Part shown: positions 148 to 13,855 of the stretch, one piece after another | Numbering within the stretch: the stretch's first letter is position 1 | Layout: every line of letters begins with the position of its first letter | Origin: a virus | Length of the DNA stretch: 21,150 nucleotides | Virus record (IMG/VR): IMGVR_UViG_3300028194_000701 | Location: 1-21,150 of that record | Reading direction: 5' to 3' (one strand) | Translations under genes and position numbers: made by a program | Notes under the pieces: generated by a model | Seen by the model: the letters and a program-made list of their open reading frames with translations, nothing else | Told to the model about the DNA's origin: nothing | The model's database searches: none

Positions 148-291
148 TCAACTTGTTACGTAAGTTAGACCTTTGTAGTTAAACCATGAGTTTATGTTGT
201 CTGGTATACTATCTATAGTGTAACCTTTTAATAATTTGCCATCTAATCTCATTAGAGACCTGTCGCTTGGGTAAAATTTAATTGTTTTCAT
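148..291 (-). CDS. Small hypothetical protein, 47 aa
   Basis: A 47-residue frame begins MKTIKFYPSDRSLMRLDG and ends at a TGA at 148-150. It starts only 6 bases after the GATAAT half of the bipartite motif at 298-328, which is the best evidence that it is a real, transcribed gene. Its first residues (MKTIK) match those of the next small gene to the left (1-86), perhaps through shared translation-start context or ancestry. A second frame after its stop stays open for about 20 codons, so a frameshifted longer product is possible. No signal peptide, membrane segment or known domain is seen. Confidence 0.5.
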   Translation of the reverse strand: MKTIKFYPSDRSLMRLDGKLLKGYTIDSIPDNINSWFNYKGLTYVTS

Positions 292-297
292 ATTGTT

Positions 298-328
298 ATT
301 ATCCGTTAGTATTCGTATTTAGTTTGTA
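298..328 (-). promoter_or_regulatory. Bipartite promoter-like motif, copy 1
   Basis: On the minus strand this reads TACAAACTAAATACGA, nine variable bases, then GATAAT, ending 6 bases before the ATG at 291. It lies inside the last codons of the gene at 299-481. Confidence 0.6.
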
Positions 329-481
329 TTTTTTAATTAATGCTCTTACTTCTGCACCTAATTCTTGATCATTAGGACATTTAATAGTTAGTTCTCTGAC
401 TACTATTCCTACTGTTGCTAGTAAAGACTTTTCTTCTTCTCTATGTTCTTCCATAAAATCCCATTCTCTATCTCTATTCAT
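299..481 (-). CDS. Small acidic hypothetical protein, 60 aa
   Basis: A 60-residue charged protein (MNRDREWDFMEEHREEEKS...) with a Glu-rich N-terminal third and a predicted helical middle. The start overlaps the end of the upstream gene (474-644) by 8 bases, so translation is probably coupled. Its last codons (ending KYKLNTNTNG) are written in the bipartite promoter-like motif of the next gene at 298-328, so the C-terminus is partly dictated by the regulatory sequence. No domain recognised. Confidence 0.6.
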   Translation of the reverse strand: MNRDREWDFMEEHREEEKSLLATVGIVVRELTIKCPNDQELGAEVRALIKKYKLNTNTNG

Positions 482-644
482 TTTCTATACTTAAATTTAT
501 TATTAATTCACCTTCATATATTTTTCTTGCTTGGCTTAGTGAGTATGTCCACTTCTGCCACTCTGTTCCACATTTCTGTGTCCAACCGTAGATACCATCT
601 TGTATATCTTGAGCGATTGCTTCTATTTTTTGTTGTTCAGTCAT
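474..644 (-). CDS. Small hypothetical protein, 56 aa
   Basis: A 56-residue frame begins MTEQQKIEAIAQDIQDGIYG and ends in a TAG at 474-476. It overlaps its upstream neighbour (637-945) by 8 bases and its downstream neighbour (299-481) by 8 bases, the same overlap on both sides, as expected of a co-translated operon. The N-terminal 17 residues look helical; the middle carries three Trp residues (GWTQKCGTEWQKWTYS). The family is not recognised. The gene is too short for routine gene callers, but its operon position supports it. Confidence 0.6.
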   Translation of the reverse strand: MTEQQKIEAIAQDIQDGIYGWTQKCGTEWQKWTYSLSQARKIYEGELIINLSIENE

Positions 645-945
645 TATTTCTAAAATTTAATTCTTCTACGTTTTCAGTTGTAGCACATTGGCCTTCATCT
701 TTCAATATCATTTGTAAGCTTAATATTGTATAGTTTATCACTAAATTATATTCTTCGTATACATATTTAGGAATGTCGTTGGACATTGAGTAATCATACT
801 CTAAAAAGTTTTGCAGATTGTATAGATTATCTAATACTTTTTCTATACTAGGAATACAATTTATTTTATGATTATAAGTTATTTCTTGAGCTTTATAGTG
901 ATTAACACTTAGTAATAAAGCTATACTAATTATAATTCTTTTCAT
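637..945 (-). CDS. Secreted hypothetical protein, 102 aa
   Basis: The N-terminus MKRIIISIALLLSVNHYKAQ is a clear Sec signal peptide: basic start, hydrophobic core, and a cleavage site after AQ of the kind common in Flavobacteriia. The mature part is about 82 residues, acidic, rich in Tyr and Asn, with two Cys that could form a disulfide. It is the second gene of a four-gene set (955-1137, then this, 474-644, 299-481) led by the motif at 1160-1190. An exported phage protein in an early-type region could modify the host envelope, for example in superinfection exclusion, but this is inferred only from the signal peptide and location. Confidence 0.65.
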   Translation of the reverse strand: MKRIIISIALLLSVNHYKAQEITYNHKINCIPSIEKVLDNLYNLQNFLEYDYSMSNDIPKYVYEEYNLVINYTILSLQMILKDEGQCATTENVEELNFRNND

Positions 946-954
946 AATTATATT

Positions 955-1137
955 TTATTGGTAAGCTGGACAAGCATTATAGTGATGAGCACGAGCAATA
1001 ATTTTACCGTTAAATTTCTTTTTAACTCCTGATTTATGAGCTGTTTGCATAGTTGAGCAAGATGTTGCTATTGCTACTAATACTATCATTAGTATTCCTG
1101 TAATTGACGTAATCGCCGTTTTTTCTGATTTATTCAT
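955..1137 (-). CDS. Probable small lipoprotein or membrane protein, 60 aa
   Basis: The protein has a short polar N-terminus, a hydrophobic stretch (residues about 9-25) and then A-T-S-C, which resembles a lipobox with Cys at residue 27. The remaining 33 residues are basic and contain His/Cys (HHYNACPAYQ). It is the first gene after the bipartite motif at 1160-1190, with 22 bases between GATAAT and the ATG. It may be a lipoprotein displayed in the envelope; a plain single-pass membrane protein is the alternative. No homologous family is recognised. Confidence 0.6.
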   Translation of the reverse strand: MNKSEKTAITSITGILMIVLVAIATSCSTMQTAHKSGVKKKFNGKIIARAHHYNACPAYQ

Positions 1138-1159
1138 ATTTATTTTATTTTATATTATT

Positions 1160-1190
1160 ATTATCTATTAGTGTTCGTGTTTAGTTTGTA
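1160..1190 (-). promoter_or_regulatory. Bipartite promoter-like motif, copy 2
   Basis: Minus-strand TACAAACTAAACACGA, nine bases, GATAAT. One base differs from the consensus. It lies in the 53-base gap before the lipoprotein-like gene (ATG at 1137) and directly abuts the stop of the previous gene. Confidence 0.65.
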
Positions 1191-1448
1191 TTAAAAGTTA
1201 TCTACCAATGTTCCATCAGGTAAATGCTTGTAATAATCTTCAATGAATATATAAGTTTCTTCAATAATTTCATTCCAATTTTCAGCCTGAGATTGAGTAA
1301 GTTTACCGTTTTCAAGATCTTCCCACATTTCTAATTGCATTTGAGACAAGTTTAACATAGCGTAACATAGTTGATCAGAAGGATAATTCTTATTACTTGT
1401 TGAAGACATTAGTGCAAATGCACCTATAGTCATTATTATTTTTTTCAT
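1191..1448 (-). CDS. Exported hypothetical protein, 85 aa
   Basis: The N-terminus MKKIIMTIGAFALMSSTSNK resembles a short signal peptide. The rest is acidic and helical, with several aromatic residues near YIFIEDYYKHLPDG. Its stop codon abuts the bipartite motif of the next unit (1160-1190). It follows the 71-residue gene at 1511-1726 after 62 bases with no second copy of the motif between them, so both are probably in one transcript. Function unknown. Confidence 0.6.
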   Translation of the reverse strand: MKKIIMTIGAFALMSSTSNKNYPSDQLCYAMLNLSQMQLEMWEDLENGKLTQSQAENWNEIIEETYIFIEDYYKHLPDGTLVDNF

Positions 1449-1510
1449 ATTTAGTTATTTGTTTAAGACTACTTGTGTAGTTTCGAGTATTAAACTCTCA
1501 TCAGTTAAAC

Positions 1511-1726
1511 TTATTCATCACATTGTAGCTTCATAATGTTTAGTATAATGCCTGAGTAAGAATCTTGATCGTCAAACATTTCATTGTTAGTTTCAGAGTA
1601 ACCATTTGACATCATCACATCATCTAACTCGTTACCGAGCTTTGACCACATTGAGTTTAGTACTTTATCGACAATTGCTTGATTGTATTTTTTGTTAAGC
1701 TTTAGCTTATGTTGTTTTATATTCAT
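1511..1726 (-). CDS. Small hypothetical protein, 71 aa
   Basis: The protein begins MNIKQHKLKLNKKYNQ (basic) and ends acidic (NEMFDDQDSYSG...QCDE), giving strong charge asymmetry. No signal peptide or membrane segment is apparent. The ATG is 6 bases after GATAAT of the motif at 1733-1763. If GATAAT acts as a -10 element, the transcript would begin at or very near the start codon. No family recognised. Confidence 0.6.
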   Translation of the reverse strand: MNIKQHKLKLNKKYNQAIVDKVLNSMWSKLGNELDDVMMSNGYSETNNEMFDDQDSYSGIILNIMKLQCDE

Positions 1727-1732
1727 ATTATT

Positions 1733-1763
1733 ATTATCTATTATTTGTCGTATTTAGTTTGTA
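1733..1763 (-). promoter_or_regulatory. Bipartite promoter-like motif, copy 3
   Basis: Minus-strand TACAAACTAAATACGA, nine bases, GATAAT, six bases before the ATG at 1726. The stop codon of the 26-residue gene at 1754-1834 is formed by the TAA within ACAAACTAA. Confidence 0.65.
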
Positions 1764-1834
1764 ACGACATCTGTTATTATTATTAGTATTGAGCAAATTA
1801 ATATTGCTAAGAATAGTTTATGTTCTTTATTCAT
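1754..1834 (-). CDS. Tiny membrane protein, 26 aa
   Basis: A 26-codon frame reads MNKEHKLFLAILICSILIII then TDVVTN: a basic start followed by a single hydrophobic membrane span. Its ATG overlaps the stop of the upstream gene (1831-2031) in an ATGA arrangement, supporting coupled translation. Its final codons and stop lie inside the bipartite motif at 1733-1763 (the TAA comes from ACAAACTAA). Single-span microproteins are common in phage host-takeover regions, but no specific role can be assigned. The short length keeps confidence moderate. Confidence 0.5.
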   Translation of the reverse strand: MNKEHKLFLAILICSILIIITDVVTN

Positions 1835-2031
1835 AGTATTTGATTTAGTATTTCGTAAACATCATCTTGTTGTGATTTATCGAGTGACATAAAGACACCA
1901 TTAGCTTCACCGGGATAATTGAGTACATGATTTATAGATTGTTGAGTCATTTCTGTTTGATGAACATACTTGTCCATTTCGTCAAAAGCTTTTTGCCATG
2001 ACCAGTTTGAAGGAGAATTTGAGTGATACAT
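1831..2031 (-). CDS. Small hypothetical protein, 66 aa
   Basis: The protein begins MYHSNSPSNWSWQKAFDEMD and looks helical throughout, with many Gln and Asp residues and no membrane segment. The motif at 2061-2091 sits 29 bases upstream of its start, and it overlaps the tiny membrane protein at 1754-1834 by four bases. The pair therefore forms a two-gene unit. No domain recognised. Confidence 0.6.
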   Translation of the reverse strand: MYHSNSPSNWSWQKAFDEMDKYVHQTEMTQQSINHVLNYPGEANGVFMSLDKSQQDDVYEILNQIL

Positions 2032-2060
2032 ATTATTTATTTTATTTAGTTTATATTATT

Positions 2061-2091
2061 ATTATCTTACGACTATCGTAATTAGTTTGTA
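2061..2091 (-). promoter_or_regulatory. Bipartite promoter-like motif, copy 4
   Basis: Minus-strand TACAAACTAATTACGA, nine bases, GATAAT. One base differs from the consensus. It precedes the ATG at 2031 by 29 bases and is immediately downstream of the hairpin at 2096-2116. Confidence 0.65.
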
Positions 2092-2095
2092 ACTG

Positions 2096-2116
2096 AGTGA
2101 GAAATCGAATCTCACT
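2096..2116. repeat. Hairpin AGTGAGA / TCTCACT
   Basis: A perfect 7-base inverted repeat with a 7-base loop (aatcgaa) sits between copy 4 of the bipartite motif and the two 31-base repeats. On the leftward strand it is not followed by a T tract, so it is not a classical terminator. It could be an operator or an RNA processing structure. Confidence 0.45.
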
Positions 2117-2163
2117 AAAAACCATTTCAGTTATGTGTTGAGTAATATATTCGTTATATTTAT

Positions 2164-2194
2164 AGTCTCTAAAGTATTACTATCAACTAAGACT
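2164..2194. repeat. 31-base repeat, unit A
   Basis: This unit is bounded by AGTCT at one end and AGACT at the other, which are inverted complements. It matches unit B (2219-2249) at 27 of 31 positions. The first base that differs at one end is matched by the complementary change at the other, so the terminal pairing is preserved. Confidence 0.6.
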
Positions 2195-2218
2195 TAATTA
2201 TATGTTCACATTATTTAG

Positions 2219-2249
2219 AGTCGCTAAAGTATAATTATCAACTACGACT
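2219..2249. repeat. 31-base repeat, unit B
   Basis: Bounded by AGTCG and CGACT. It is the second copy of unit A, shifted by exactly 55 bases, with the palindrome ATAATTAT in the middle. It ends 8 bases before the stop codon of the gene at 2257-2493, so it lies in that gene's 3' untranslated region. Confidence 0.6.
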
Positions 2250-2256
2250 TTTAGTT

Positions 2257-2493
2257 TTAAGACTGAGTACTTAATTCTCTACAGAATTTTGGAACAGTAT
2301 TACTATTTGTATAAGATTTGTACTGTTGAAAGCAAGACATTGATTCGAACTTTTCTTGAAATGTTGAGTAGATTTCATCATGATCATAAGTGAATGTGAC
2401 TTCTTTCTTATTAGTAAATGTAATTACTGTATTTGTACCGAGTAAAGATTTTCTTATTACGAATCTTTTTGTTGTTAAGTTATTAGTTTTCAT
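2257..2493 (-). CDS. Small hypothetical protein, 78 aa
   Basis: The protein begins MKTNNLTTKRFVIRKSLLGT and continues with alternating beta-like segments (VITFTNKKEVTFTYDHDE) and a C-terminal region with two Cys. It is a single-gene unit: the motif at 2526-2556 lies upstream, and downstream is a 165-base gap holding two 31-base repeats and a hairpin. It resembles no family I can name. Confidence 0.55.
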   Translation of the reverse strand: MKTNNLTTKRFVIRKSLLGTNTVITFTNKKEVTFTYDHDEIYSTFQEKFESMSCFQQYKSYTNSNTVPKFCRELSTQS

Positions 2494-2525
2494 ATATTTA
2501 TTATTTATTTAGTTTAGTTATTATT

Positions 2526-2556
2526 ATTATCTGTTTGTTGTCGTATTTAGTTTGTA
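2526..2556 (-). promoter_or_regulatory. Bipartite promoter-like motif, copy 5
   Basis: Minus-strand TACAAACTAAATACGA, nine bases, GATAAT, 32 bases before the ATG at 2493. It lies in a true intergenic gap. Confidence 0.65.
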
Positions 2557-2620
2557 TAAGTGTATATTTATTTAGTTATTATTATTAGTTGTTAAGTGCA
2601 TCGCACATACTCTTATAATC

Positions 2621-2713
2621 TTACATTATATATATTAAGAATATTAATTCATAAGTGATAAAGATTATTGGTAGTATTATATCGATTGATGTTAGTTTAT
2701 TTATTATAGTCAT
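2621..2713 (-). CDS. Tiny membrane protein, 30 aa
   Basis: A 30-codon frame begins MTIINKLTSIDIILPIIFIT and ends ELIFLIYIM; it is almost entirely hydrophobic after residue 10 and would form one membrane span. It starts five bases after the stop of the gene at 2719-2895, so the two appear co-transcribed from the motif at 2922-2952. Base composition here is extremely AT-rich, so a chance hydrophobic frame cannot be excluded. The matching layout of the 1754-1834 microprotein makes a real gene more plausible. Confidence 0.4.
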   Translation of the reverse strand: MTIINKLTSIDIILPIIFITYELIFLIYIM

Positions 2714-2718
2714 AGTTA

Positions 2719-2895
2719 TTAGTTTATATATATTAGTTTTATTAAAGTATTAATTAACATTTGTTTATCTTCATTTGAATTATATTCACAATCAATTTCT
2801 ACAAATTCATTTACTTGTTTTTGTATTTCTTTTTTACTTACATAATTTGATTCAAATTGAAAGTGGTTTATAGTATCGTCATTAAAGTATTTCAT
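2719..2895 (-). CDS. Small acidic hypothetical protein, 58 aa
   Basis: A 58-residue frame begins MKYFNDDTINHFQFESNYVS and contains a Lys/Glu-rich helical middle (KKEIQKQVNEFVEIDCEYN). It is the first gene of the leftward region, with the bipartite motif at 2922-2952 starting 26 bases upstream. No signal peptide or known domain. Motif spacing and start context support it despite its size. Confidence 0.5.
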   Translation of the reverse strand: MKYFNDDTINHFQFESNYVSKKEIQKQVNEFVEIDCEYNSNEDKQMLINTLIKLIYIN

Positions 2896-2921
2896 ATTAT
2901 TTATTTATTAGTTACATATAT

Positions 2922-2952
2922 ATTATCTAAACTATGTCGTATATAGTTTGTA
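2922..2952 (-). promoter_or_regulatory. Bipartite promoter-like motif, copy 6
   Basis: Minus-strand TACAAACTATATACGA, nine bases, GATAAT. One base differs from the consensus. It heads the whole leftward region, 26 bases before the ATG at 2895, at the left edge of the divergent control region. Confidence 0.6.
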
Positions 2953-3114: not shown

Positions 3115-3199
3115 TTTACTTATATACATCTAAGAAAGGTGACATTTACCCCCTAGAGCTATAGAATAAGGGGCATTTGTCACCCCTAGCTTAAGTAAA
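3115..3199. promoter_or_regulatory. Large nested dyad (possible operator or leader structure)
   Basis: Three nested complementary blocks are visible: TTTACTTA (3115-3122) with TAAGTAAA (3192-3199), GGTGACA (3138-3144) with TGTCACC (3178-3184), and CCCC (3149-3152) with GGGG (3170-3173). Together they could form one long interrupted stem upstream of the first late gene. Whether it works as a DNA operator or as a folded RNA leader cannot be told from sequence. Confidence 0.5.
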
Positions 3200-10490: not shown

Positions 10491-12038
10491 ATGCAAGAAT
10501 TAAAGTTAGTTAAAAATCTGGCTTTTGGTGATGGTGCCAGAAGTCAGATATTAACTGGAGTTGAAAAACTTACTAATGCAGTAGGGTCAACTTTAGGAGC
10601 AAGTGGTAAATGTGTTATATTAGAAGATGCAAATGGCATGCCACAGATAACAAAAGATGGAGTAACAGTGGCTAATGCAGTTACATTACAAGACTCTTTA
10701 GAAAATATTGGAGCTACGTTAATAAAACAAGCAGCACAAAGAACAGTATCAGATGCTGGCGACGGCACTACAACTGCTACGGTTTTAGCAAAAGCTATTT
10801 TAGATGAAGCTTACAAACATAGCGAATTAGATACTTCAAGAGAATTAAAAGAAGGTATTGACTCAGGTGTTAAAAAAGTTATAGCTTATTTAGAAAAAAC
10901 ATCAAAGAAAGTAAAAGGTAAAAAAATAGATCAAGTGGCTACAATATCAGCCAATAACGATAAAAAGCTTGGGAAGATCATAGGGGAAGCATTTAGATTA
11001 GTAGATGAAACAGGTATTGTTATGATGGAAACAAACGAACAACCTGAGACAATAGTTGAGCTAATAGAAGGCGTACAATATGATCAGCCATTGAAAAACA
11101 ACCACTTTATTACCAACAATGAAAAGGGCACGGCTGAACTTGAAAATCCGTTGATTCTAATTGTAGAGTCAGTAATACCCAACGTGCGGAAGATTCAGTC
11201 AGTTCTTGAACATGTAATAAAGACAGGTAAAAGTTTGCTTATAATAGCAGATGTTGACCCGCAGGTAGTTTCAGCACTTTCAATGAACAAAGTAAAAGGA
11301 AACATAAAGGTTAACATTATAGATGCACCGGTTTATGGTATTAGTAAAAAGGATACTCTAAATGATTTATGCGCGGTTACTGGTGCTACACTTATTAATG
11401 AAGATCTAGGTGATGACATGGACATAATAAGTCCAGAGCATTTAGGTAGCTGTTTAAAAGTTATAACTAATCACGAGGAGACAATAATGAAGGTTGATTT
11501 ATCTAATAATAAAGATGTTGAAGATATAACTAACTTATTAGAAGCTCAAATAAAAGAAACTAAAAATCCAAATTTAATTATTAGACTAGAAAGACGTTTA
11601 GCTAAATTAAAAGCTAAAGTTGCTACAGTTAAAATTGGCGCTAACTCTGAAATAGAATTAAAAGAAAAAAGAGATAGAGTAGAAGATGCTATTTGTGCTA
11701 CAAAAGCTGCGATCAAAGAAGGTATAGTGCCAGGAGGCGGTATAGCTTTATTAAACGCTGCACAGCAATTAAAACCAATGTCAATAGGCGAAGAAGTACT
11801 TTACTGTGCTATTAAAGAGCCTTATAAATTGATACTTAAAAATGCTGGCGTTGAAGATTATAAAACACCAGAAGTAAAAGGCATGGGATTGGATGTGGTT
11901 ACAGGAAATACGGTTGATATGGTAAAAGCCGGAATTATAGATCCTTTGCTAGTTACTAAAAGTGCGCTAATGAACGCAGCCTCAGTAGCCACAACAATAT
12001 TATCTACTGATTGTGTTATTAATAATGTTAGAGCATGA
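10491..12038 (+). CDS. groEL: GroEL-type chaperonin (Cpn60), 515 aa
   Basis: Full-length group I chaperonin, which forms ring complexes that fold proteins with ATP and a GroES lid. Diagnostic features: ITKDGVTVA with Asp56, DAGDGTTTATVLA with Asp91, RVEDAICATKAAIKEGIVPGGG with Asp399 and the terminal Gly triplet. These correspond to the nucleotide- and Mg-binding and hydrolysis residues of E. coli GroEL (Asp52, Asp87, Asp398), so it should be active. It is about 30 residues shorter than E. coli GroEL (548), in part because the Gly-Gly-Met tail is missing. The LGPKG loop reads LGASG. It overlaps groES by four bases, in the order groEL-groES, the reverse of bacterial operons. Its location among fibre and virion genes suggests it folds phage structural proteins. 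Confidence 0.95.
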   Translation: MQELKLVKNLAFGDGARSQILTGVEKLTNAVGSTLGASGKCVILEDANGMPQITKDGVTVANAVTLQDSLENIGATLIKQAAQRTVSDAGDGTTTATVLAKAILDEAYKHSELDTSRELKEGIDSGVKKVIAYLEKTSKKVKGKKIDQVATISANNDKKLGKIIGEAFRLVDETGIVMMETNEQPETIVELIEGVQYDQPLKNNHFITNNEKGTAELENPLILIVESVIPNVRKIQSVLEHVIKTGKSLLIIADVDPQVVSALSMNKVKGNIKVNIIDAPVYGISKKDTLNDLCAVTGATLINEDLGDDMDIISPEHLGSCLKVITNHEETIMKVDLSNNKDVEDITNLLEAQIKETKNPNLIIRLERRLAKLKAKVATVKIGANSEIELKEKRDRVEDAICATKAAIKEGIVPGGGIALLNAAQQLKPMSIGEEVLYCAIKEPYKLILKNAGVEDYKTPEVKGMGLDVVTGNTVDMVKAGIIDPLLVTKSALMNAASVATTILSTDCVINNVRA

Positions 12039-12295
12039 AAGCAGTAGGTAAATTTATAGTTATAGATCCAGTCAAGGAAACTGATGTAACTACAAAAGGT
12101 GGTTTAATCTTAGCTGAAAAGCAAAGAGAAGATATTAGATATAGAAGAGCTAAAGTCATAGAACCTGGCTCTGAAGTATCTGTATTAAAAAAAGGTGATG
12201 AAATTTATTATGATAAATCAGCTGGATTTAATATTGAAATAAATAAAGAAGAATATAAAGTTATTAAAGAGTTTGATGTAGTTATTATACTATGA
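12035..12295 (+). CDS. groES: GroES-type co-chaperonin (Cpn10), 86 aa
   Basis: A short Cpn10 protein: FIVIDPVKETDVTTKGGLIL at residues 7-26 contains the mobile loop with G-G-L-I-L in place of the usual G-G-I-V-L GroEL-binding tripeptide. It is followed by RRAKVIEPGSEVSVLKKGDEIYY and a closing strand (EYKVIKEFDVVIIL). It is about 11 residues shorter than E. coli GroES, mostly around the roof loop. The ATG overlaps the groEL stop (ATGA), so the two are made in linked amounts and presumably form a matched phage chaperonin pair. Confidence 0.9.
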   Translation: MKAVGKFIVIDPVKETDVTTKGGLILAEKQREDIRYRRAKVIEPGSEVSVLKKGDEIYYDKSAGFNIEINKEEYKVIKEFDVVIIL

Positions 12296-12726
12296 GAAAG
12301 TTAACGTCTAGTGATTTAAAAGAACTAGGTTTACTTAAACATTATAGAATAATTAGAAAATGGGCTTGTAAAACTAATAACTTAAATGATGCAGAATTAG
12401 AATTACTAATATATCTTGATGCTATGGATATGTTTACTAAAGATGATTTTATAAAAGGTACGTACTCATTCAGCTGGGATAATAGGCGCTGGAACAAATT
12501 ATTGAAACAAGGGTGGATTATAGTGTGGAGAAAAAGAAACCACACCACTCAAAAATATCACATATATAAAGTTTCCTACAAGTGCAAACAGCTGATAAGT
12601 CGCATGTACCGTGTAATATTAGGCGAAGAAGATATGCCTACTAAAAAATTAGAAAAAATTAATAGATATAGTTATAAGGTAATTACTAAATCAATAGATT
12701 ACGTTAATAAAGATAAAAAAAGATAA
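12292..12726 (+). CDS. Possible winged-helix DNA-binding protein, 144 aa
   Basis: The protein is basic and aromatic-rich. After an N-terminal helix (TSSDLKELGLLKHYRIIRKW) come ELELLIYLDAMDMFTKDDF, WNKLLKQGWIIVWRKRN and HTTQKYHIYKVSYKCKQLIS. This succession of helices followed by a W-x-x-x-x-x-G-W-I beta wing resembles MarR-like winged-helix proteins, in which L-x-x-x-G-W/L-I leads into the wing. It overlaps groES by four bases. It could be a regulator or a structural protein that uses this fold. Assignment is by pattern only and is tentative. Confidence 0.5.
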   Translation: MRKLTSSDLKELGLLKHYRIIRKWACKTNNLNDAELELLIYLDAMDMFTKDDFIKGTYSFSWDNRRWNKLLKQGWIIVWRKRNHTTQKYHIYKVSYKCKQLISRMYRVILGEEDMPTKKLEKINRYSYKVITKSIDYVNKDKKR

Positions 12727-12727
12727 T

Positions 12728-13855
12728 ATGGCTTACAAACAACCTAAAAAAACACCAATGCATAATGATGGTGCTTCAGAACCTATTACTTTAGCCGTAT
12801 TAGCTGCTTTAAAAGGTGCTAAATTAATAGCAGGCTTAGTTAAAGGTGGAAAAGCCTTGGCAGCTGGAGCAAAAGCTGCTAAAGGAGCTGGACTATTAGC
12901 TAAGGCAGGTAAAGGAGGTAAACTATTAACCAAAGCAGGTAAAGTTGCAACAAAAGCAGGAAAAGTTGGTAGTAAAACTAAAAAAGGAACAAGGTTGTTA
13001 AATAAAAGTAAAAATATTATAAACAAAGTAGATAAAGTTAAAGAGAAAGGTAGTAAGCTTATTGAAAAAAGCAACCAAATGAAACAAAAAGCCCAAAAAA
13101 TAGGGGGGAAATTAGATAAAACCATCAAAAACGTCCAGCAAGGAACTAGCAAAGGCCAAGTTAAAATTGATAAAATATTCGGTAAAGTAGAAAAAGCTAC
13201 AGGTGGCAAGTTAGGAAATGTTGATGAAATGAAAGAAAAAGCAGGACAAGGAATAGCATCGAAAGTTGGGGATAGTACAACTAAAGGCATAGCAAAAATT
13301 CAAGAAAATAATTCACCTGCTGATCCAGATCAGTTTAGAAAAAATGAAGATAGCCCAACAATGCCTCAAGGCCATAGTTATACTAATCCTTCAGGCGTCA
13401 GTATGAGTAAAAAATATGGAGCTTCAAGCACCCAGATACAGCAAGGAACTGAAGCTTCTGGCAATGTTCCAGCTACCATGACTAATATGACATCAGGAAC
13501 AGCTTTAGATCCTAGTAATATAAGAAAACAGACTAGTGTACACAAGTTTTTAAATAATTTTGAAGCTAACGCAAACGTTGGAGGAATAAATATACCTTTA
13601 GGTCCTTTAACTAGATTAACACACGCTCTTGCTACAACAAAAATTGACGCTGTTAAAAAAGAAAGGTATAAAAAAAGATTAGCTGAAATAGAAAAAAGCA
13701 AACCTATATCGGGAAGAAAGCTGTCTGCTCAAGTAGAAGCCAATACCGATAAAATGAGTAAAATTGCTAAAAACATAAAAATAGATACTAAACAAAAAGC
13801 CCCAATAAAATCTGGCTCATTAAATTTAGGTAAACAATTAAAATTAAAAAAATAA
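12728..13855 (+). CDS. Lys/Gly/Ala-rich basic virion-type protein with GAS motifs, 375 aa
   Basis: Residues 1-17 end in HNDGAS. Residues 18-80 are a Gly/Ala/Lys/Leu-rich amphipathic stretch (LAALKGAKLIAGLVKGGKAL and onwards), reminiscent of membrane-active peptides. Residues 80-190 are Lys-rich helical repeats (NKVDKVKEKGSKLIEKSNQM). A Pro/Ser-rich linker carries SGVSM (222-226) and YGAS (230-233). The C-terminal region has a short hydrophobic patch (GGINIPLGPLTRLTHALATT) and more Lys-rich helix. It could be an internal or ejected virion protein that contacts membrane or DNA; that is inference from composition. No known domain. Confidence 0.6.
   Translation: MAYKQPKKTPMHNDGASEPITLAVLAALKGAKLIAGLVKGGKALAAGAKAAKGAGLLAKAGKGGKLLTKAGKVATKAGKVGSKTKKGTRLLNKSKNIINKVDKVKEKGSKLIEKSNQMKQKAQKIGGKLDKTIKNVQQGTSKGQVKIDKIFGKVEKATGGKLGNVDEMKEKAGQGIASKVGDSTTKGIAKIQENNSPADPDQFRKNEDSPTMPQGHSYTNPSGVSMSKKYGASSTQIQQGTEASGNVPATMTNMTSGTALDPSNIRKQTSVHKFLNNFEANANVGGINIPLGPLTRLTHALATTKIDAVKKERYKKRLAEIEKSKPISGRKLSAQVEANTDKMSKIAKNIKIDTKQKAPIKSGSLNLGKQLKLKK

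Follow-up and report, generated by a model that had tools for sequence, protein, structure and literature searches.

The DNA analyzed here is the 21,150-nucleotide stretch at positions 1 to 21,150 of IMG/VR virus record IMGVR_UViG_3300028194_000701 (hereafter the window), and the element under study is a bipartite motif that precedes small leftward genes near its left end. The window spans an arm junction, with an early arm running leftward and a late arm running rightward. A pattern scan of the entire window yielded six copies of the motif, all on the minus strand, with none beyond these six, and 100 dinucleotide shuffles of the window gave 0 matches. The copies carry 0 to 1 mismatches across 22 fixed bases, the gap from TACGA to GATAAT is exactly nine bases in each, and a gene unit heads leftward after every one (6/6). 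An earlier sequence-only reading of the window had listed these same bipartite sites, and its coordinates, strand, and mismatch counts were all confirmed. The sites and the genes behind them, with predicted transcription starts (+1) and leaders in nucleotides (nt), are as follows.

2922 to 2952, minus strand: predicted promoter 1, TACAAACTATATACGA-N9-GATAAT; predicted +1 at G 2915; ATG at 2895 after a 20-nt leader; gene 2719-2895.
2526 to 2556, minus strand: predicted promoter 2, TACAAACTAAATACGA-N9-GATAAT; predicted +1 at A 2519; ATG at 2493 after a 26-nt leader; gene 2257-2493.
2061 to 2091, minus strand: predicted promoter 3, TACAAACTAATTACGA-N9-GATAAT; predicted +1 at A 2054; ATG at 2031 after a 23-nt leader; gene 1831-2031.
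1733 to 1763, minus strand: predicted promoter 4, TACAAACTAAATACGA-N9-GATAAT; predicted +1 at the A of the ATG at 1726, leaderless; genes 1511-1726 and 1191-1448.
1160 to 1190, minus strand: predicted promoter 5, TACAAACTAAACACGA-N9-GATAAT; predicted +1 at A 1153; ATG at 1137 after a 16-nt leader; genes 955-1137, 637-945, 474-644, and 299-481.
298 to 328, minus strand: predicted promoter 6, TACAAACTAAATACGA-N9-GATAAT; predicted +1 at the A of the ATG at 291, leaderless; gene 148-291.
148 to 2895, minus strand: start of the leftward early arm, under the six predicted promoters; in relatives, the arm continues into DNA ligase, sigma factor, ERF, exonuclease, primase-helicase, thymidylate synthase, and ribonucleotide reductase (RNR).

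The 78-amino-acid (aa) product of gene 2257-2493, behind promoter 2, is conserved in 13 of 13 compared genomes, and a homologue of gene 148-291, behind promoter 6, was found in 7 genomes.

Scanning IMG/VR with the 20 best-fixed bases of the motif recovered at least 119 stretches with an exact match. The motif was present in all 27 longer contigs tested, at 1 to 15 copies each and always on one strand, with 0 matches to the reversed pattern. Twelve relative contigs were analyzed at full length; eleven are ~62–71 kb, and the other, G017 (129.5 kb; L158-L164), has the motif cluster and the sigma gene twice over, looking as though the genomes of two related phages had been joined. The full-length relatives are circularly permuted, with two divergent arms. 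Portal, terminase, a crAss-type muzzle protein, and GroEL/GroES are encoded in the late arm, and DNA ligase, ERF, exonuclease, thymidylate synthase, MazG, primase-helicase, and RNR in the early arm. The early arm opens with the motif cluster, which adjoins the divergence point. At L232, L243, L255, L257, L272, and L273, a reverse copy of the motif stands back-to-back with the first forward copy, facing the late arm. The window phage likely belongs to a large uncultured clade related to cultured flavophages. Judged by terminase, its cultured relatives have Flavobacterium, Cellulophaga, Maribacter, and Tenacibaculum as hosts, so this marine phage probably infects a member of the Bacteroidota. 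The cultured or reference relatives phi38:1, elemoA, MW202828, Panino, and phi18:3, which share terminase and portal, have neither the motif nor a detectable sigma factor; their best position weight matrix score was 4.4, with a cutoff of 20 for real motif sites.

The architecture of the motif was derived from 717 sites, non-redundant by sequence, which gave the consensus TACAAA-N3-AATACGA-N9-GATAATA-N4-T-R. Numbered from the final purine, TACAAA occupies −37 to −32 and, after three free bases, AATACGA occupies −28 to −22, followed nine bases later by GATAATA at −12 to −6 (GATAAT at −12 to −7). Four AT bases come next, then a −1 that is T in 71% of sites and a +1 that is a purine in ~100%. Bases 6–8 of the box differ among phages, so the conserved core is TACAAA-N3-AATACGA-N9-GATAATA. 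With two substitutions allowed in the upstream box, a spacer of 9 bases was counted at 630 sites and one of 8 at 2, with none of 4–7 or 10–15, and GATAAT followed at +9 in 454 of 454 upstream boxes. The fixed nine-base gap described from the window alone thus holds in relatives too. The spacer had also been called unconserved, but position −13 within it is strongly phage-specific.

Two features of these sites locate the transcription start. At 158 of the 717 sites (22%), the ATG of the downstream open reading frame (ORF) falls exactly on motif position 37, the +1; ATGs are sparse just beyond it, and leaders of 11–25 nt then form a broad peak. Compared within the same arm, an ATG lies exactly at +1 in 25% of sites versus 0.6% of random positions. 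A purine also occupies position 37 in 99% of the 558 leadered sites, which have no start codon to impose one; the base is G in 51%, in AT-rich DNA. This position is 7 nt past the final T of GATAAT, and a sigma-type −10 box sets the start ~7 nt after its hexamer. The ATG placement and the purine signature are independent and agree, which supports the +1 numbering and GATAAT as a −10 box. Where the ATG sits exactly at +1, the mRNA looks leaderless; by this rule, promoters 4 and 6 of the window would be leaderless, with 2 of 6 genes starting at the predicted first mRNA base. A known mark of bacterial leaderless genes is a TA-rich signal ~12 bp before the start codon (PMC3160421).

The copies also follow gene starts as a set, with an ORF start within 50 nt downstream of +1 in 91% of sites, compared with 32% at random same-arm positions; the scatter unrelated to gene starts that would have refuted the sequence-only reading was thus not seen. 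That reading had offered either a phage-specific promoter or an operator coordinating six small operons. Restriction to one strand, position in front of genes, a ~100% purine +1, and ATGs on +1 strongly support a promoter at each copy, and an operator or activator role is left only as a possible extra for the upstream box. A pure operator, at which a repressor or anti-terminator would act while transcription began at some other place, would suit the two-part fixed geometry, but we regard it as extremely unlikely: the site is not a dyad, and every copy heads a unit with a fixed-distance start signature, the ATG being at +1 in 22–25%.

A promoter of this kind could belong to a phage-encoded RNA polymerase, either T7-like or of the injected virion type, as in N4 and crAss-like phages, in which case TACGA-N9-G would resemble T7 spacing and +1 would be the G of GATAAT. 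The long invariant consensus, rigid spacing, single strand, and place in the early arm near the divergence point would fit such an enzyme, as would the presence of a giant late protein of 2300–3800 aa. Start codons and the purine signature, however, fall at position 37 and not 25, Pfam and PHROGs searches of the large G001 proteins revealed no polymerase, and hairpins do not occur beyond chance, making this reading improbable. A search of the 27 contigs with PF00940 gave no match, and the positive controls equally gave none. Specific versions of this idea were rejected. The position-37 start signature, together with the lack of any polymerase gene found, speaks against the T7-like arrangement. 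An N4-like hairpin promoter had been prompted by a perfect hairpin at window site 2061-2091, but such stems are no commoner than with shuffled spacers. The giant late protein, considered as a virion RNA polymerase, showed no conserved DxDxD motif and no PDB-profile or Pfam match.

A candidate reader is encoded in the early arm itself. All 12 full-length relatives carry there a gene for a ~250-aa sigma70-family protein, a few kb downstream of the promoter cluster, or of most of it; in G007, G011, and G018, the ORF is seemingly split or truncated by frame breaks, either through sequencing error or in reality. The protein matches PHROG 351 (sigma) with E = 1.9e-15 and, among PDB profiles, sigma28 (FliA) with E = 7e-12 as the best full-length match and RpoD/SigA with ~3e-9. 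Among the members compared with Pfam, Sigma70_r4 was detected in 8/8 and r2 in 6/8. An AlphaFold model is two-domain (predicted local distance difference test score, 82), and its top PDB matches are all sigma subunits (prob 1.00). At least 467 relatives of the protein are present in IMG/VR. When 80 loci were retrieved by the sigma protein alone, 69 carried the motif, with 367 forward and 6 reverse copies and 0 in shuffled DNA; in ten of the 11 loci without it, the upstream DNA extends no more than ~2.2 kb, and the eleventh, L206, has variant-box sites. Further early proteins are also clade-specific, so co-occurrence alone cannot single out the sigma factor; its known biochemistry does.

The motif copies are almost certainly promoters and probably serve host core polymerase carrying this phage sigma factor, switching on small early operons as one regulon. 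GATAAT, at −12 to −7, would act as the −10 hexamer, with the −35 region covered by the strictly fixed TACAAA-N3-AATACGA upstream box at −37 to −22. The sigma70-family factor from the same early arm would direct host core RNA polymerase to the motif, and transcription would begin at the purine +1, mostly after T, which in about one-quarter of cases would be the A of a start codon. In the window, the six promoters would together fire the small early operons beside the early/late divergence point. We infer that the sigma factor reads the motif, that the window phage encodes one, and that expression is early; direct reading is likelier for GATAAT than for the upstream box. Across 13 genomes, host-type TTG-N17-21-TAnnTTTG sites do not exceed chance frequency, in some cases falling below it, and few stand in front of genes, which suggests that the phage does not depend on sigma-A promoters of the published type. 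At one locus (L228:9964-10001), the sigma gene starts exactly at the +1 of a motif copy, a placement that suggests autoregulation. A ~70-aa Cys4 zinc-ribbon-like protein (G001 58216-58428; L128:18216-18428) is conserved in 12/12 genomes and has no match in Pfam or PHROGs. Its gene in G001 would be transcribed leaderless from a motif copy, and the protein is a possible additional transcription factor.

Several observations weigh against this reading. The window itself contains no sigma gene, as the fragment ends before that region. The motif is usually absent directly before the sigma gene, which leaves first-round transcription unexplained. A long fixed box at an invariant distance is atypical of sigma70 promoters, in which the spacer normally tolerates ±1. 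When sigma residues were compared with promoter bases, covariation failed to map to the expected contacts; it was strongest at base −13, spread over the protein, and confounded by phylogeny, and we did not use it as evidence. Finally, between L224/L275 (AAAAAAGGTTGACACGA) and L276/L278 (TACAAAAATAATACGT), the upstream box is wholly changed while sigma region 4 is almost identical; a second protein may therefore read part of the box. This contrast came from a lineage comparison anchored on GATAATA....YR alone (821 forward sites, 13 reverse), in which the upstream box was found rewritten in some lineages (AAAAAAGGTTGACACGA, CCCCCAACTAATTACTA, ACGGAGCAAACACGT, TCGAAACATAATACGA) with the −10 and +1 kept.

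The phage sigma factor, or a modified host sigma, would then read GATAATA only, and a second phage protein on TACAAA-N3-AATACGA would recruit it, as T4 MotA does. An invariant −10 and +1 beneath a box that differs by lineage even with near-identical region 4, two sub-boxes spaced about one helical turn, and several small early proteins that are conserved and clade-specific would all agree with recruitment. However, the fixed distance and TACAAA at −37 to −32 also fit sigma region 4, and no candidate activator emerged. Moreover, in L336/L340/L342, TACAAA is changed to TGCAAA together with an altered region 4 helix, a coupling that argues for the sigma factor reading the box. We regard an activator as a possible, though not the expected, reader of the upstream box.

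A search for a shared late-promoter motif gave only AT-rich words, and a palindrome was noticed instead, present in the window as follows.

3140 to 3182, no strand assigned: 43-bp imperfect palindrome, TGACA...TGTCA, in the divergent region between the late and early arms.

In its conserved form, the palindrome is 42–45 bp and imperfect (TGACAwTAGCC...GGCTAATGTCA). One copy lies where the early and late arms diverge and another where the sigma operon begins (G001 55351 and 61887, and equivalents), with 182 occurrences versus 1 in reversed sequence. A related palindrome lies ~640–800 nt upstream of sigma at 83 of 165 loci; at 82 of these 83, the start codon of the gene preceding sigma (~207 aa) is inside its 3′ arm, and an ORF of at least 150 codons follows in 77. 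The palindrome is a candidate operator through which a single regulator may act on both the late arm and the sigma operon. The giant late-arm protein contains a 113-aa sigma region-2-like domain (L132:7116-7454, L177:10052-10390, L154, L183, and L167), clearly present in 5 of 12 genomes and with at least 140 relatives in IMG/VR. Nearly all top PDB matches of its AlphaFold model are sigma factors (SigE N-domain, prob 0.98, root mean square deviation 2.8), though the best E value, 0.38, is not significant, and sequence-profile comparison with sigma is weak. This domain could conceivably enter with the DNA and let host core polymerase fire the GATAAT promoters until replaced by the phage sigma factor, whose operon would share the palindromic operator with the late arm, but such virion-delivered activity seems doubtful. 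A separate observation is a tail-region protein in G001 (10747-13050; L177:747-3050) with a C-terminal Por_Secre_tail type IX secretion sorting domain (Pfam E = 4.5e-11), odd for a phage.

The proposed system has parallels among known ones. T4 middle promoters (MotA/AsiA) likewise combine an upstream box with a separate −10 element at fixed distance; their sequence is different, and T4 uses host sigma70 with AsiA. No MotA/AsiA homologue was seen, and none was searched for. The sigma28/FliA promoter consensus, TAAAGTTT-N11-GCCGATAA, has the GATAA core of the −10 in common with the motif, and FliA is the best full-length profile match noted above, but the −35 sequence and distance differ and the phage sigma factor is only remotely related. 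Closest in logic to the proposed system are phiEco32 gp36 and Salmonella phage 7-11 gp47, phage-encoded sigma70-family factors that use a private consensus with host core polymerase (PMC8948821). Their transcripts start 6–9 bp from the −10-like element (PMC8948821); here, the +1 predicted from sequence lies 7 nt after GATAAT. Their consensus (tAATGTAtA; GTAAtg-16-aCTA) is unrelated to the present motif, and they serve middle/late genes (PMC8948821), whereas the motif heads the early arm. The longer upstream box, invariant spacing, many leaderless starts, and Bacteroidota hosts are further differences. Flavobacterial sigma-A promoters share the expected host type and sigma promoter logic, but they carry a −7 box, TAnnTTTG, and TTG near −33 (PMC9723704). 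The motif has no TAnnTTTG, as the first reading had correctly said, and leaderless starts make up 22–25% here, whereas leaderless mRNAs are only 5.5% in F. psychrophilum (PMC9723704).

A literature search of limited reach found no earlier description of the motif or of such a phage-sigma system in Bacteroidota, and no published transcription map for the clade. The analysis gives a predicted promoter and start site at base resolution, and a probable reader, for a large, uncultured, mostly aquatic clade of Bacteroidota phages, whose leaderless early genes become predictable from the motif. The upstream box, repeatedly rewritten under a constant −10, offers a natural series for studying the evolution of promoter specificity, and Bacteroidota genetics would gain a useful tool from a clean, host-orthogonal sigma/promoter pair.

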